Source: Oidiodendron maius Zn (taxonomy: Eukaryota; Ascomycota; Leotiomycetes; Myxotrichaceae). Taken from it: 64,000 nt of DNA. A model generated the notes under the pieces. The model worked only from the letters and a program-made list of their open reading frames with translations. It ran no database searches and was not told the DNA's origin. Shown piece after piece: positions 42,063 to 53,671 of this stretch (its first letter is position 1; the number at the start of each line of letters is the position of its first letter). The stretch spans positions 310,001 through 374,000 of the forward strand of contig KN832875.1 in assembly GCA_000827325.1 (NCBI GenBank). The letters run 5' to 3'. A program made the translations under genes and the position numbers.

Positions 42063-42749
42063 GAGGCGAGCGGGGTGAGGGCGTTCGGGTACGTGGGCCG
42101 GGAGGGAAGGACGGAGGGAGATGGTGAAAGTCGCAATGAAGGAAGTTGCCTGGAGATGTCGAGTACTTTTGGAGATAGCGTACTGAAAGATAGGACACAC
42201 CACACTACTATACTAGGATTTGGCGACCCCTTTTCCGGTTTTGCGGCCCAGCTCCTTCTGCCATGCGGCAGCATGTGGAATTTCGGTGATGGCCCAATGA
42301 GCCGAGGCCTTCAACTAAAAGGACCCGTGATGCAGGGACCGCTTGCTTGTTTCCCCCGCGTCCGTTTATCCTTGGTTCGGTACGCGCGGCAACATGATAT
42401 CGCAAGCAAGGTCGAGGATCACTGTGCGTGATGATCTTGAGAGTGCGGCTTTGTACGGCCATTGGAGTTGCAGCATAGGAGCCTGTAGGCCTAACTACAG
42501 GGGATGGCCATGCCTGACGCTGTAGTCGCCCAACTGCACCAGAGACAATGGCTTCGCGTCAACTGAGATATGAAGTTCACTCGATTTGGAGAGGCTATAC
42601 AACTGGACGAGAAGAGCGGCTTTAAATAAGTTACAGGTTTCAGGTGACTAATATCTCCCTTGCATAGCTGCTGACACGTCCAAGGAAATGTCGGAACATG
42701 ATCGTGTTTTTCATACTTCCCTTCGCCGAAGACAAGAACCACCACCTCT
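42063..42749. other. Intergenic region, acyltransferase promoter
   Basis: 0.69 kb between two leftward genes, holding the acyltransferase promoter on the left and the 3' end of the next gene on the right. No coding frame or RNA is convincing. Confidence 0.4.
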
Positions 42750-43591
42750 TCAGGCCGTGAGCGCTGTCTTATAAAGGCCAGCTCGTTTGTTGCTGCCGCA
42801 GTCCTTATGCTTGCATGCATTGCACTTGCACCCGCCCTCACTTTGCTCGCAAGGGCACGGATCCGCCTTGCCTCCATGGCGCTTGCACCCATGATGCTGG
42901 TGGCTATGCGGCTGGGGCTTCACCAAGATCTTGAAGTTTTCCCCCGTTTCAGCAACCGCGTGAACCAGGACATCATCGCCATATGGCCACTCATCCCTCT
43001 CCGAATCTTGCTCCTCGTATTCAGCGAATGACTCTTTTGTGACTTCCTGATCAAGAAGGACCTTCTTTGCGGCTTCTCTCGCGGCCGCACGCGTGGCATA
43101 TGTGCCCTGGACTTCGGTCTTCTGGCTGCCGCCACTGGCATCATGGTTGTAATAGATTGTGGTCTGGAGAACTGCAATATATATCAGTTCGTGATCCCCT
43201 TGTGGCAAGGATACGAGTGCAAACCGTATTGGAGATGACTCTCAACCTCTCCAGAGGCATTGCCCTTGAATTTAAAGAAGTTAGGCTTCGTATCCAGGCA
43301 AACCTCAAACTCTTGTCCCGCAGGTGCTTTGGCGATGACTACCACCCCATCACCGTGCTTCCACTCCGTGGTCCCATCGTTTTCCTCATACTTCTCGAAA
43401 TCATCCTTGACGTAACCTTCGCTGGCGAGAGCAGATCGAGCTGCTGCTTTGGCCGCGGCAAGATCTGTGAAAGTATTGAGGATATCAGTGATTTGAGTTG
43501 CGCCTGATTTGTCATGAGCAAAATCAACTACGGTGCGCTTGACATGATAGAGGAGCTCTGGAGCGTCCTGTTGGGTCACGTCTGTGGCCAT
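42750..43591 (-). CDS. Duplicated-domain protein with Cys/His-rich, metallothionein-like tail
   Basis: Two exons (43591-43225, 43171-42750), 262 residues, starting MATDVTQQDAPELL. Two copies of an about 90-residue domain lie in tandem. Copy 1 runs from ELLYHVKRTVVDF to EVCLDTKP; copy 2 from HLQYVLQTTIYY to KILVKPQP. They share the pattern HDxSG..Q.T, AAA..AA, YEExD, EW..GD.V.V and a G.xF strand near the end. The 53-nt intron (donor GTTTGC, acceptor TTGCAG) falls at the copy 1/copy 2 border, so each copy has its own exon. After copy 2 comes a His-rich stretch HSHQHHGCKRHGG and a tail with seven cysteines (CPC, CKC, CNAC, KDC), like a metallothionein. No signal peptide. I do not recognise the repeated domain. 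Metal binding is inference from composition. Confidence 0.8.
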
Positions 43592-44373
43592 AATACCTGT
43601 TGTGAAGTAGTTTTAGAGTCAGTTCCTCAGTGGAGCTGTGCTTAATACTGAGATCTCACTTTGAGATGAGAGTGCCCTTCATGGGGTCATATATGTTACC
43701 ATTAAACACATACGAGAACACGCGACACTTGACAGGAGGCGTTTAAGAGTATAAATGCATGTTTGTGGCCTGACATTCTTTTGCCACCCCTATGACGAAA
43801 GCATCAACATTAGTGGCTGAATTCAACCTCAGGGATGAGAGACGGGAGAACACGGTACCTTATTAGTTTAACTTGTTCCATTTGTAGGCCTGGGTCTCGT
43901 GAGCCGTGCGGTGAGGGGCTTGGGAGAGCGGTCTCCATGTATAGTTCTTGCAATCTGAATAAGACAGATGCTCAAGGCGGGACAATTTCACATGATGCGT
44001 AGGCCATTCATGGACCGAATTTCAGCGTCATATCCAGGCAAGCTCAATTCAGTAATCCAACGACTGCTAGGATGCAAGTTCCTTACTCGACTGTTTACTA
44101 GGGAAGAACATCCACCTTCTATGCTGGTGAGAGGGAAATGGCGCATGACGATGTTTTTGCAAACCCCACAGGTATACGGGGAAATGCAAGAGCAATTGAT
44201 TCATAGTGCAGAGGTCCGACCTGTCTATAATACATTTCGTGTTTCCGTACGTCCAAGAACATACGCTCTCCTGGATATCAATGCGAGATCTGAAATGGCA
44301 TCATCTTCCCTTCGAACCCCCCCTCCAAAATTCCGCTCTTCTAAGCAATGATTCGCTCCCCCCTCATTACGAC
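43592..44373. other. Intergenic region upstream of the duplicated-domain gene
   Basis: 0.78 kb holding the promoter of the duplicated-domain gene and the 3' end of the exomer gene. A plus-strand frame at 43968-44351 shows no family features. I looked for a metal-response element by eye and cannot name one with confidence. Confidence 0.4.
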
Positions 44374-47887: not shown

Positions 47888-50800
47888 ATGGTACGTTCGT
47901 CTGCCACTTTATGTCAGAATGTGTACTAAGAGAAGTTATACAGGCAAGCTTTACTGCTCTTAATATCGAGCCAGACGATCAGATTGATGACGAAGTCGAT
48001 AATACGAAAGAAATACAAGTATTACTTCCTTCCCTCAAATCTCTTTCTAACTAACACGTTATGCAGATAGAAGATGCCCTCAAACTTTATCAAACGGCCC
48101 TTAAGCTGCATTCTCAAGGCTCAACTCTATATCCACAAGCAGCAGAAGCATACAGCAACCTCTTCAAGTCGGATATTTTCAAGTACCCCGAAAGCGTCAC
48201 CGAATTTACGAGAATAGACGAGCATCCGGAGTTGGAGCTTGTTGATACGTCGTTTCCGCTTGTCCTTGATCTTGCAGCAGCAGAAGCCGATGCCAGCTCT
48301 TTGCCTCAGGTGTTATATCTGTCCTTCAAGAATCATGGACAGTTTATATTGGACTGCGTTAAGTCTCGTCTTCAACACCCTGATCTGCCATCAGATCAGC
48401 AGCTAGATGAGGCTGCTCTGCGTTACCAAGGCCTTGCAGCTATTGATAACTTCACCCTCGCACTAGCTAGGGACGAATCTGACACAGAGTTATGGCGACG
48501 CACTGCACGTGTAGCTGCTATGCTAGGGAGTAAGAGAATATCGCGCTATTGTCTGGAAGCTGCGGTTGAGGTTGACGATGACCCGACTGTTGCAGAAGTA
48601 GATCCAGCATCATTAGAAGAAGGCTTTGCAGGAGAACAGCTCAAAGAGCGACTGGAAGTAATCTCCGATGAGGTTGCTCTATCTCATCCTATTATGACTC
48701 CATTTCTGAAGAAGGCAATTCCCCAATTTCTGAAGAAGCACATGGACCCTTACCCATACCTTCCTGATCCTAGTATGCTTCATGGAAATGATCCAATGAG
48801 CATGACTCAATCCGAATCCAGTCAGCCAAGGACCGTGATCGAAGTTCCCGAGAAGAGTTGGATTGCTCTAGGAGACGCGCTTGTCATGCTGACAATATCT
48901 CCACTAGGTTATTCCGGAGCTGCAGCTGTCATTCGGCTTCCAGAAACTGCTGAGCATCTCGAACAGCGAAATAAGTCCACGGAGACAAACCCCAATGACC
49001 AGCTAATGAATGATATAGAGTTGACAGCGTCGCCAGTCGTTGAAAGTTCAGATGCTCTCCCAACTGCCTTTAATGTGTTAAAAGACGATCCACCCGTTGA
49101 AAATATCACGACGACAACTGTTCCGCTAAATGATGAGCGTGAGCGTTCACAAAGCATCTCTCTTCCAACCAGGAAACGATCCCAGTCTGCGGCCGGTATT
49201 CGCGATACTCCTGAAGATGATAGCGGAACACAAAAAAGGAGCAAGCGTATTCGGAACCGTGATACGACTGCGGAAATTGACCCTACTACCCAATATGCGG
49301 AGCAACTAAAGGAATTCGTAGAGGCTGACGAAGCCCTTTTTACCTTTGCAAGTGGTTTGCTTACACAACTTGGTGTGGATGATTTGGGCACCCTGCCCGA
49401 GCTTCAGTCCGTATTATCTAGCCAAGGGGGTCCGGACACGGTGGACACGATATCGAACACCGCTGTTAGAGACTTGTGGAGTATGTTAAAAAATTGGGAT
49501 GACGACAAGGCATCAACGTTCCAAAATGCAAATGCGGCAGAGATACTCGGATCATCATCAGGAGGAGGTGCAAATGCTGGCTTGGCAGCGTTCCTTGAAC
49601 ATTCCAAATCTGGGCCGCAGAAAATCAACCCGGGAGCAACATTCGATGCCACGGAAGGGATTGATTTGTTCGCGAGTCAAGTAGAGGGCAGCTGGATGTC
49701 CCCTCAAGATATTGTCTTTGCGTGGTTGTGCATCGTCTTGGCCACCTATCGGCTAAGTATTTGGCCTGATGATCTAAAAGGAACCGTCGTCCGTGCCATC
49801 AGTTTTGCTGATCCCGAGATTTTCGAGCGCATCATTTTGGAAGTTGAGAGTATCAATACGCGAACTGGTGACATGAAAAGGCTACGAGATCTCCAAGAAA
49901 TGACGCAAACACTATTCGAACTTCATTTAGACATCTACTCTAGAATCACAAATCCTAGTAGTATTGTCCACTATGAAACGAGGGTTATGACTAAGGAGCG
50001 ATTGGATCGATGGGCCAAATTTGCTGCTGAGGTTATCCAGTCAAATGCACCCGAGCCTGAGGACGAACTATCACTGAGGTACCTTTGGACTTCCGTCTTC
50101 TATGCTACCATGGCTGAGAGTGTCTCTCGCGAGCACAGCGTCCTCTGCTGGTCTGATTTAAAGAGTCTACTCAATGAAACAGGAAACCCGATTCTCGAGC
50201 TTCCGAATAATGCCGTTATGCCTGAGATCTCGGCGGCAGCGGCAGAGCGGGAAGTGTCCAGACTTATGACAATGGATTTCTTTTATAATCTGTTTCAAAC
50301 GGACACGTCAAACCCAGCAGCCATCATTGAAACGTTGGAGCCAGTGCTGGATCCCCAGTCAGCGTGTGAGCCAGCCGATTCAGCGGCTGGTGAAATTGCT
50401 GTGGCGTCCGACTCGGATAGCACGCCAGCAGCCCTTCGTGACATGTGGAAGTTCTTGAAGACAGGCAGCACGTCATTGCGTCTTTTCCTGTGGCAGCGAC
50501 TCCGAGAAGCGTATTCCAGTATTCAATATAGTACCAAGGTGTTCTCCTGCTACTTGAAAAGTATTGAGATCATCGTCGCTGACCTTCGGAGCGAAGAATA
50601 TGTCCATTCCGCTGACGAGCCTCGTCACCATCAAATGCTATTATGGCTAAAGGCTTTGGATGAGTTACTGGTAAAATCTTTGACTATTGCCTTAAATGAT
50701 TCTTCTACCTGCTTTGAAATCATTGACGAACGTCATATCAAATCGACTTGTGCAGCAATCGCACAACTCAATCGAATCCTCCATGGCGCAGCAATCTTTG

Positions 50801-53671
50801 ATGATGAGGTCAGGGTTGGAATGACCCAAGTGCCTCAGAACCCTGCGTATGCTCCGCATGGTTCATTCAGCGGTTTTGTTAATAAGCTTCGAGAGATGCA
50901 AGTGCGTACTTGGGCTCTGCAATACTCCATGGTTAAGGAGGCGCTGACCCAGAACCGGGAACTCTTCCCGACTCCGGACACTATCCTACCGGACTTTTTA
51001 ACGCATATCCACTACCCGTTGGGATTACGAAAGTTCTGTAAAGCGTCTAATAAAATATTCTTGAAAATGATGAAAGTTGAGATGATACGGTTGAAGCCGG
51101 CGAACAAATGGGAAGATTATCTCGGGCAGGTGCTTTTCGACCTTTATGGTATCAAGCTTGGTGTTGGCACATACTTACTCGAAGAACATGGATGTCCCAC
51201 AGAACCACTGGATAGACGTACTGTCTTAAATATTGCTGAGCAAATCATCACACTCGCAAATACAATGTCGCTGAAGGATCTTTTGAAGCACGAGCTGCGT
51301 GCTACGATCGAGAGGATGCAAACAGCCATTGGCCCTGCTAAGTCGACTCCACAAATGACACATAATCTTCGCAATATTACCGAATACATCAAAGGCTCTA
51401 TTCGTCCCCTCGACATGTACCAGGCTTTGAAGGGCCAAGTTCAAATCGACTGCACGCCTGTTCTAGGAGTAGATAACGGTATTGCAGACAAAGGCTGGTA
51501 TTTTCTTCAGGGTATGATCGCGCTTACAAAGTTCCGCTCACAAAAGAGGCTTGGTCCAGGTGGACAGACAGATGATATGCGGGTCAGCGCAACATTCATG
51601 AGGTTGCAACTTCAGTATACTATGGATCATTGGGAGACATGGTATCGTCTTGCACAATGTTTCGACTTTGAGCTGGAGGACGAAGTCATGTGGAGCGCGG
51701 ACAAAATTAATAATCACCGCCCCGAGTTGGTTCGAATGCAGCGTGGAGCTATTCACTGCTATATCATGGCAGTGTCAACCGCTATTCGGACGGCAGATGA
51801 CTCGCTTGATACAGCAAAGAAGCTTTCGGAGATGTACCACAACTTTGGAATGCGCCTCTACGCCTCCTCGCGTGAACCGTTTACAATGGAAGCTTTCTAT
51901 GTCGACGAGTTTGAACGGCACTTTAGCGGGGCCCAAGGCATGTATAAGAAGCCTTTGCATACGGAGATGAGCCGCTTTAAGCTGTGGATGTATACTGCTC
52001 AACTGTTCAAAAAGGCGATGACAGATGGGCCAAATAATTGGATGTAAGTAGCCCACAAACCCGTGCTACGCGATATAACTGACCTTCAGGAACCATTACA
52101 TGCAAGGAAAGTGTCTATGGAAAGCATATTATAGAGTTAGCGACGATTGGGCTGCGACAGAGCGTGTCATCAAGCCATCTGTTCAGTCCGTGCTCAATGC
52201 TTTTGTGAAGGCAATTGATACAGTCCCACGGCCAAAGGATAGTCGCCAGGAACCTATTCTTGAACCGCACTACAAGCTTGTTTCAGTTGTTCACAAATTA
52301 GTTATAAAAGGGGATATGCAACCACAAGCTGGTGTTGATCTGTTACAAGAACAGCCATTCAAGATCCGCAAAGGCGAGAGTATTACCGTAAAGGATCTTG
52401 AGGAGTGGGAGCCTTTCATATTGGAATCTGTCCGCAATCTTCGAAACGCCGATAAAACACACTGGCATCATCGTATCATTGCCCGCGTTGCAAGTATCTT
52501 GTACGATGACAGCAAACCTGAATATGTCCAAGCGGTCGCTGCTCGCGCCGAATTCCGCGACTCTATATTCACAAAGACAATGCATATTCAAGTCTGGAAG
52601 CCCGAAGCCGAACGGCCAGGCAGACATTGTGTATATATGGAGCGATATGTACGATTTATGATGAATATCCTGTCAGCCCTCAACGATAAATCCAATATGG
52701 AGTTACTGGTCAAGAGGGTACGAAAAAAGGGAAATGAGCTTTTTCACTTCAACAAAGTCTGGAATGATTGTTGCGGTGCTTATCTGCGTTTGATCCGCCG
52801 CGCCAGCCAGATACCCATCAGTATGGATGAGGTATTTAAGACCATTCCCACAGAAGAGTTTGAAAACTTTTCTGAGCGCTTGGCTCACTGGATCAATGAT
52901 CCAAAGGTCTCTCACCCAGCGCTCGACGCTCTACGTGAAGCCACTGAACTAAAGAAGACAAACGCGAATCAAATGAAATCCACACCTATCGACGATCTGA
53001 TCAACGATGCTTGGGCCGTTCTCTATACCCAGGTGGCACAAACGCTTCCTGGTCCTGAGCCCTCATCGTTGCGGCAGCCTCAGCCAATTGCAGCCAATGA
53101 TGGAGTTGCACCGAGATCACTTGGTCCAATGGGCCTTAATACGCTGGTTATGAATATGGATGGCACTCAAATTCCAGTCCCAGTCACGTTCGCCAGCTCA
53201 TCCGAGCACTCCCGGGCTCGAAAGGTCGGTATATCTCGTCGTGAAGTGCTGCGCAAAGCCGAGTCGGCGGTGAATCGAGCCCCTGACGCGCCCAGACCCC
53301 TGGCGCCATCGGCGGCAAGATCCCGTAATTCAGAGCCTAACTCAGCGATTCTGGGTCCTGGCGGTCCTGGTCCAGAAGGTCTACCAATTGGGAAAGTTGA
53401 GAACCCTGCCCTGCAGAACATTAGGGACGATGAGAACATGGACCACAGCAAGCTGGAGAGCGAACAGTCAGCTCCAGGAAGTCTTCACGATAGCGCAGAC
53501 GATGAGAGCGATTTGAGTGAGACCGTGGACGAAGATGGGGACCCCACAATGATGTTCCCTGGACTTATGGCGAAGAATCCTTCGGAGACTAAGCATGAGG
53601 GTGTCAACATGCCGGCTGTGAATGGGACTGCGAAGCCCCCAGATTCAGGCAGAGAACATGGAAATGTATGA
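47888..53671 (+). CDS. hir3: Hir3, histone transcription regulator / HIR histone chaperone subunit
   Basis: Four exons (47888-47890, 47944-48018, 48067-52043, 52090-53671), 1878 residues, as expected for Hir3 (orthologue of human CABIN1). The coding part of exon 1 is the ATG alone. Exons 2 and 3 then give the conserved N-terminus ASFTALNIEPDD..DNTKEIQ and IEDALKLYQTALKLHSQG. The protein is a long alpha-helical TPR-like scaffold with matching blocks EAYSNLFKSDIFKYPES, LWRRTARVAAMLGSKRISR, HWETWYRLAQCFDFELEDEV and YMQGKCLWKAYYRV. Two acidic disordered stretches lie at about 280-400 and the C-terminus. With Hir1, Hir2 and Hpc2 it deposits H3-H4 independently of replication and represses histone genes; it works in the nucleus. 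The introns are 53, 48 and 46 nt. Confidence 0.95.

Follow-up and report, generated by a model that had tools for sequence, protein, structure and literature searches.

The gene described here lies on the minus strand of the window, by which we mean the whole stretch of 64,000 nucleotides that was analysed. It is predicted to run from an ATG at 43591 to a TGA that ends at 42750, exactly the boundaries given in the preliminary description (42750..43591), and to encode 262 residues in two exons separated by a 53-nt intron. The predicted protein has two copies of a small domain and, after them, a Cys- and His-rich tail, arranged as follows.

43225..43591, minus strand: exon 1, with the ATG and its open frame, encoding the N-terminal residues, repeat 1, the linker and the start of repeat 2 (three residues)
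43172..43224, minus strand: intron of the preferred model, 53 nt, with donor GTTTGC, branch-like CTGAT and acceptor TTGCAG
42750..43171, minus strand: exon 2, encoding the remainder of repeat 2 and the Cys/His tail, with the stop TGA
43280..43552, minus strand: repeat 1, residues 14-104 as aligned, with HDKSG, AAA..AA, YEEND and EWKHGDGVVV
42906..43171, minus strand: repeat 2, residues 120-211 as aligned, with HDASG, AAA..AA, YEEQD and EWPYGDDVLV
42753..42908, minus strand: Cys/His-rich tail, 52 residues with 7 Cys, 6 His and 7 Lys

The usual fungal donor is GTRNGT, and the donor of the preferred model, GTTTGC, differs from it at the third and last bases. With the single acceptor that was tried (TTGCAG), six GT or GC donors leave the tail in frame, giving introns of 35-182 nt. 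The runner-up in plausibility, GTCATC (68 nt), gives a protein of 257 residues that keeps the tail and loses very little of either repeat. We prefer the 53-nt intron because L-Y-V then begins repeat 2, as it does in repeat 1, and we infer that this intron is spliced. The open frame of exon 2 (42753..43241) contains no Met codon, and exon 1 is therefore needed; exon 2 is not a separate ATG gene. Retention of the intron (43184..43591, minus strand) leads to a stop after 135 residues, leaving a single repeat and no tail, and this product is a possible second isoform.

The preliminary description reported two copies of a domain of about 90 residues that share the spaced pattern HDxSG, AAA..AA, YEExD and EW..GD.V.V. 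Both parts of this claim are borne out. The pattern is present in each repeat, and the copies, of about 92 residues, are identical in 33 of 92 alignment columns, with an alignment score of 165 that lies far above the scores of 2000 shuffled sequences (mean 27.0, sd 5.0, maximum 53; z 27.6). Each exon also recovers its partner when used as a query against the organism's own genome (E 5.5e-13 and 1.5e-14). The two repeats are true tandem duplicates. The placement of one copy per exon holds nearly, except that the opening residues of repeat 2 (LQY, residues 120-122) are encoded at the end of exon 1, at 43226-43234.

No third copy of repeat 1 was found in the own genome (45.9 Mb, 58 contigs) at E up to 1, and no further copy was found there with the exon 2 query at E up to 0.001 or with the tail query at E up to 10, all in six-frame searches that report the best candidates only. 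Pattern matches numbered 7 and 2 in viral contigs, one search per exon, and in genome contigs 158 for the two-row alignment and 39 for exon 2, and none of these was confirmed; plasmids searched by tblastn gave no match. These viral, contig and plasmid collections are prokaryotic or viral, and their blanks say nothing on fungi. Similar repeats are presumably present in further proteins, likewise uncharacterised, from filamentous ascomycetes.

The domain could not be named in the preliminary description, and the libraries searched here agree, as neither Pfam nor NCBIfam yields a match over a curated cut-off for the repeated domain. With Pfam matches admitted up to E 10, the whole protein reaches its lowest E value, 0.045, with DUF7336, and repeats 1 and 2 taken singly go no lower than 0.1 and 0.087, in a search where HMMER drops most Pfam matches above 0.1. 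The match to DUF7336 (PF24024, residues 122-182) was rejected at 14 bits against a cut-off of 25, and the DUF7336 model itself finds no match in the own genome at E up to 10, this gene included. Weak Pfam matches of the domains to DUF5633, GA-like, DUF7543, Spa1_C and BROMI_N, an NCBIfam match to PINA (E 0.064, 11.8 bits against a cut-off of 800) and six matches in PHROGs (E 0.037-0.17) were dismissed as chance. A PADLOC search gave nothing, PDB sequences searched with the protein gave no match, and the one PDB chain reached with the two-row profile (E 0.33) was also put down to chance.

AlphaFold models built from two sequences are poor for both exons, with a mean pLDDT of 44.9 for exon 2 and 41.3 for exon 1. 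In these low-confidence models (pLDDT <50), each repeat is drawn with a helix over the Ala-rich stretch and a pair of strands towards its end; the first two strands are drawn for repeat 2 alone, and repeat 1 has one additional strand behind the helix. Foldseek with the poor exon 2 model returned 305 matches at E up to 10, the best at 0.15 and none at 0.001, and we treat them as meaningless.

The tail has a computed pI of 8.97, against 4.67 for residues 1-210, and holds seven of the eight Cys in the 262 residues of the protein (residues 218-247). These are spaced C-x9-C-x-C-x6-C-x-C-x2-C-x4-C, giving two CxC and one CxxC, and the only Tyr of the tail is near its end. The preliminary description counted HSHQHHGC plus seven cysteines, but seven is the total, the Cys of HHGC included. 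Together, Cys and His make up 13 of the 52 residues, the highest value among 16,944 segments of this length, with 11 at the next distinct place, in a comparison drawn from 126 open frames of at least 100 residues, many of which are surely not genes. Cys alone is not exceptional, as three other places in the 64-kb window have 7, 7 and 10. An antisense frame over the tail (42761..42934, plus strand) is Cys-rich too, with 8 Cys in 57 residues, which calls for caution towards claims resting on composition alone. The number of CxC in the tail is matched by 17% of 20,000 shuffles, and the order of its Cys is not more metallothionein-like than theirs.

The main evidence for translation of the tail is the open frame, which goes on beyond repeat 2 through 52 codons free of stops. 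The tail had been placed in the frame of repeat 2, and this placement is supported, since the two share a single uninterrupted open frame. Donors of the GTRNGY or GTNNGT type are absent from 42400..43171, and exon 2 contains the start of no GT-branch-AG set 40-200 nt long; therefore, nothing hints at the tail being spliced out. Codon scores were computed with a model from eight long frames of the 64-kb window, all but one of which have a Pfam match. The first score, which mixes residue choice and codon choice, is 0.19 for exon 1 against -0.12 and -0.55 in the other minus-strand frames and -0.28, -0.41 and 0.05 in the plus-strand frames. It is 0.22 for repeat 2, above all five other frames, and -0.06 for the tail, where two other frames are higher (0.02 and 0.12). 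A score for synonymous choice only separates little, with 0.041 for exon 1 and 0.065 for a plus-strand frame, 0.072 against 0.069 for repeat 2, and 0.056 for the tail against 0.079 and 0.063 in two plus-strand frames. All seven Cys codons of the tail are TGC, and the frames of the coding model use 25 TGC and 19 TGT.

The preliminary description called the tail metallothionein-like. Family 8 metallothioneins have the Cys pattern CXC-X5-CXC-X3-CXC-X2-C (PMC4755600). The tail has the seven Cys of this family, but its spacing of 9, 1, 6, 1, 2 and 4 does not follow that order. Proteins of the family are short, with few aromatics and little or no His; here the protein has 262 residues, and the tail has six His and one Tyr. 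The tail reaches Metallothio_Euk at 15.8 bits (E 0.014), missing the Pfam cut-off of 22, and its match to DUF1619_N (E 0.023), also under the cut-off, was dismissed as chance. The tail was also aligned with four fungal metallothionein sequences taken from PMC4755600, with 2000 tail shuffles for each. Its alignment score was reached by 15.7% of shuffles for N. crassa MT, 52.8% for C. glabrata MT1, 9.1% for C. glabrata MT2 and 23.6% for Y. lipolytica MT3, so that 9-53% of shuffles equal the scores and similarity beyond composition is not seen. The label thus holds for composition; the family 8 pattern, the Pfam cut-off and the alignments do not bear it out. A metal-binding composition is supported; descent from metallothioneins, with alignments and a CxC count no better than those of shuffles, is not.

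A search of the own genome with N. crassa MT gave nothing, and such a blank carries no weight. Metallothio_Euk and Metallothi_Euk2 each have one sub-threshold place in the own genome (E 0.209 and 2.27), each with an internal stop. The Metallothio_Euk place was set aside: it is a 40-residue frame overlapped on the opposite strand by a 134-residue frame, which in our reading resembles C2H2 zinc fingers further on.

We compared the protein with known metal-binding systems. It resembles family 8 (fungi-I, N. crassa type) metallothioneins in its seven Cys, its CxC pairs and a CxCxxC stretch, and it differs from the 26-residue N. crassa-type protein in that its tail has six His and is borne by a two-domain protein of 262 residues. 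Like CnMT1 and CnMT2 of Cryptococcus and TmMT of Tremella, it is fungal, is longer than classical metallothioneins and has a 7-Cys unit. Those proteins owe their length to repetition of the 7-Cys unit (PMC4755600), whereas in the present protein the repeated part is Cys-poor and there is one Cys stretch. A Cys-poor duplicated domain with a single Cys/His tail is a layout unlike the long metallothioneins described in PMC4755600. Aspergillus nidulans CrdA and Candida Crd2 are likewise fungal, Cys-rich and metallothionein-like, but CrdA has 16 Cys in 109 residues with seven CxC and is His-free (PMC5447758), compared with 8 Cys in 262 residues here. In bacterial SlyD, a folded protein ends in an unstructured tail of His and Cys, which binds several metal ions and is believed to store them and hand them on (PMC7055735). 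The protein described here similarly has a C-terminal His/Cys-rich tail, its final 52 residues containing 7 Cys and 6 His, after a putative folded part. The folded part of SlyD is an FKBP-type prolyl isomerase (PMC7055735), and this family is not one of the three that the whole protein matches in Pfam at E up to 10. Among the literature matches listed (titles and abstract openings), there is no described case of a fungal metallothionein fusion or of this layout, and peptide strings of the protein had no match in the literature. The layout may be common in fungi, merely unannotated.

The most likely reading, to which we give about an even chance, is that the tail of this two-domain protein is a tethered metal buffer or donor. 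The protein would be soluble and probably cytosolic or nuclear, with two tandem copies of a small domain and a flexible C-terminal Cys/His tail. It has no hydrophobic leader or span (top 19-residue mean hydropathy 0.82, top 10-residue mean near the N terminus 0.66), and its thiols are therefore likely to be in a reducing compartment. The tail would bind soft or borderline ions, such as Cu(I), Zn(II) and possibly Cd(II), through thiolates and imidazoles and would act as a buffer or donor in the manner of SlyD, and the acidic two-domain part would bring it to a partner or maintain solubility. We infer the metal binding and the buffering role of the tail; a binding partner of the two domains is a guess. 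Metallothioneins of N. crassa and A. bisporus bind about six Cu(I) with seven Cys (PMC13107397). The duplication, the highest Cys plus His density in the window, the two CxC and one CxxC, the count of seven Cys, the missing leader, the SlyD precedent and the dependence of exon 2 on exon 1 argue for a tethered buffer, while the shuffle-like Cys order and the missed Metallothio_Euk cut-off argue against it.

The two CxC are few, and the scattered Cys and His could instead form one or two four-ligand sites. In that case the tail would be a knuckle- or ribbon-like zinc site of structural kind, small, with one or two Zn(II), whose purpose is partner binding and not buffering. We consider this unlikely, as no zinc-finger family was found and the tail matches nothing in Pfam at E up to 10 beyond Metallothio_Euk and DUF1619_N, both under their cut-offs. 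The exon 2 model over the tail, with block pLDDT of 31-42 and two short strands, is too poor to argue either way.

The genomic context bears on regulation by copper. The copper-fist family is a family of fungal regulators, and five copper-fist places are over the Pfam cut-off in the own genome; several copper-responsive regulators are therefore likely in this genome. The Ace1-type consensus of yeast, HTHNNGCTGD, does not occur in the 782 bases upstream of the gene (43592..44373), and this absence says little because 0.65 occurrences are expected by chance, as measured in shuffles. We scanned 20 of the 29 neighbouring open frames of at least 200 residues, and 10 have a Pfam match at E 0.001 and 10 do not. 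The neighbours include ChAPs, a GH72 glucanosyltransferase and a GH35 beta-galactosidase, and we take the source of the window to be a filamentous fungus. None of the 10 Pfam-matched frames belongs to a family known to us as metal-handling. The missing Ace1 site and the missing metal-linked neighbours count weakly against a copper-regulated gene. Two close long frames on the plus strand, 48055..52047 and 52079..53671 (1330 and 530 residues), are without a Pfam match at E 0.001.

It is quite improbable that the protein is a metal or redox sensor, in which metal loading or disulphides in the tail would alter the packing of the domains and hence partner binding. The five copper-fist places suggest copper-responsive regulation, and Cys-rich motifs act as copper sensors in fungal factors such as Cuf1 (PMC13343922), but no DNA-binding or enzymatic domain over the cut-off was found in Pfam or NCBIfam. 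Slighter still is the chance that the tail extends the protein with low-complexity sequence under no selection, or goes untranslated in this frame, with function in the two domains alone: neither codon score singles out the tail frame, the antisense frame is likewise Cys-rich and the Cys spacing resembles shuffles, but the stop-free run after repeat 2, the absence of a consensus intron and, weakly, the uniform TGC codons count against it.

A tethered metal buffer or donor remains our preferred reading. The stronger claim of a novel eukaryotic architecture, in which a duplicated, hitherto undescribed fungal domain delivers metal from a covalently attached, non-canonical His/Cys metallothionein-type tail to a specific client, is one in which we place very little confidence. 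Should the tail bind metal, fungi could have metal buffers in forms other than free peptides, and searches for short Cys-rich genes would overlook proteins of this kind. The fold and partner of the duplicated domain, once named, would place an unnamed fungal family.
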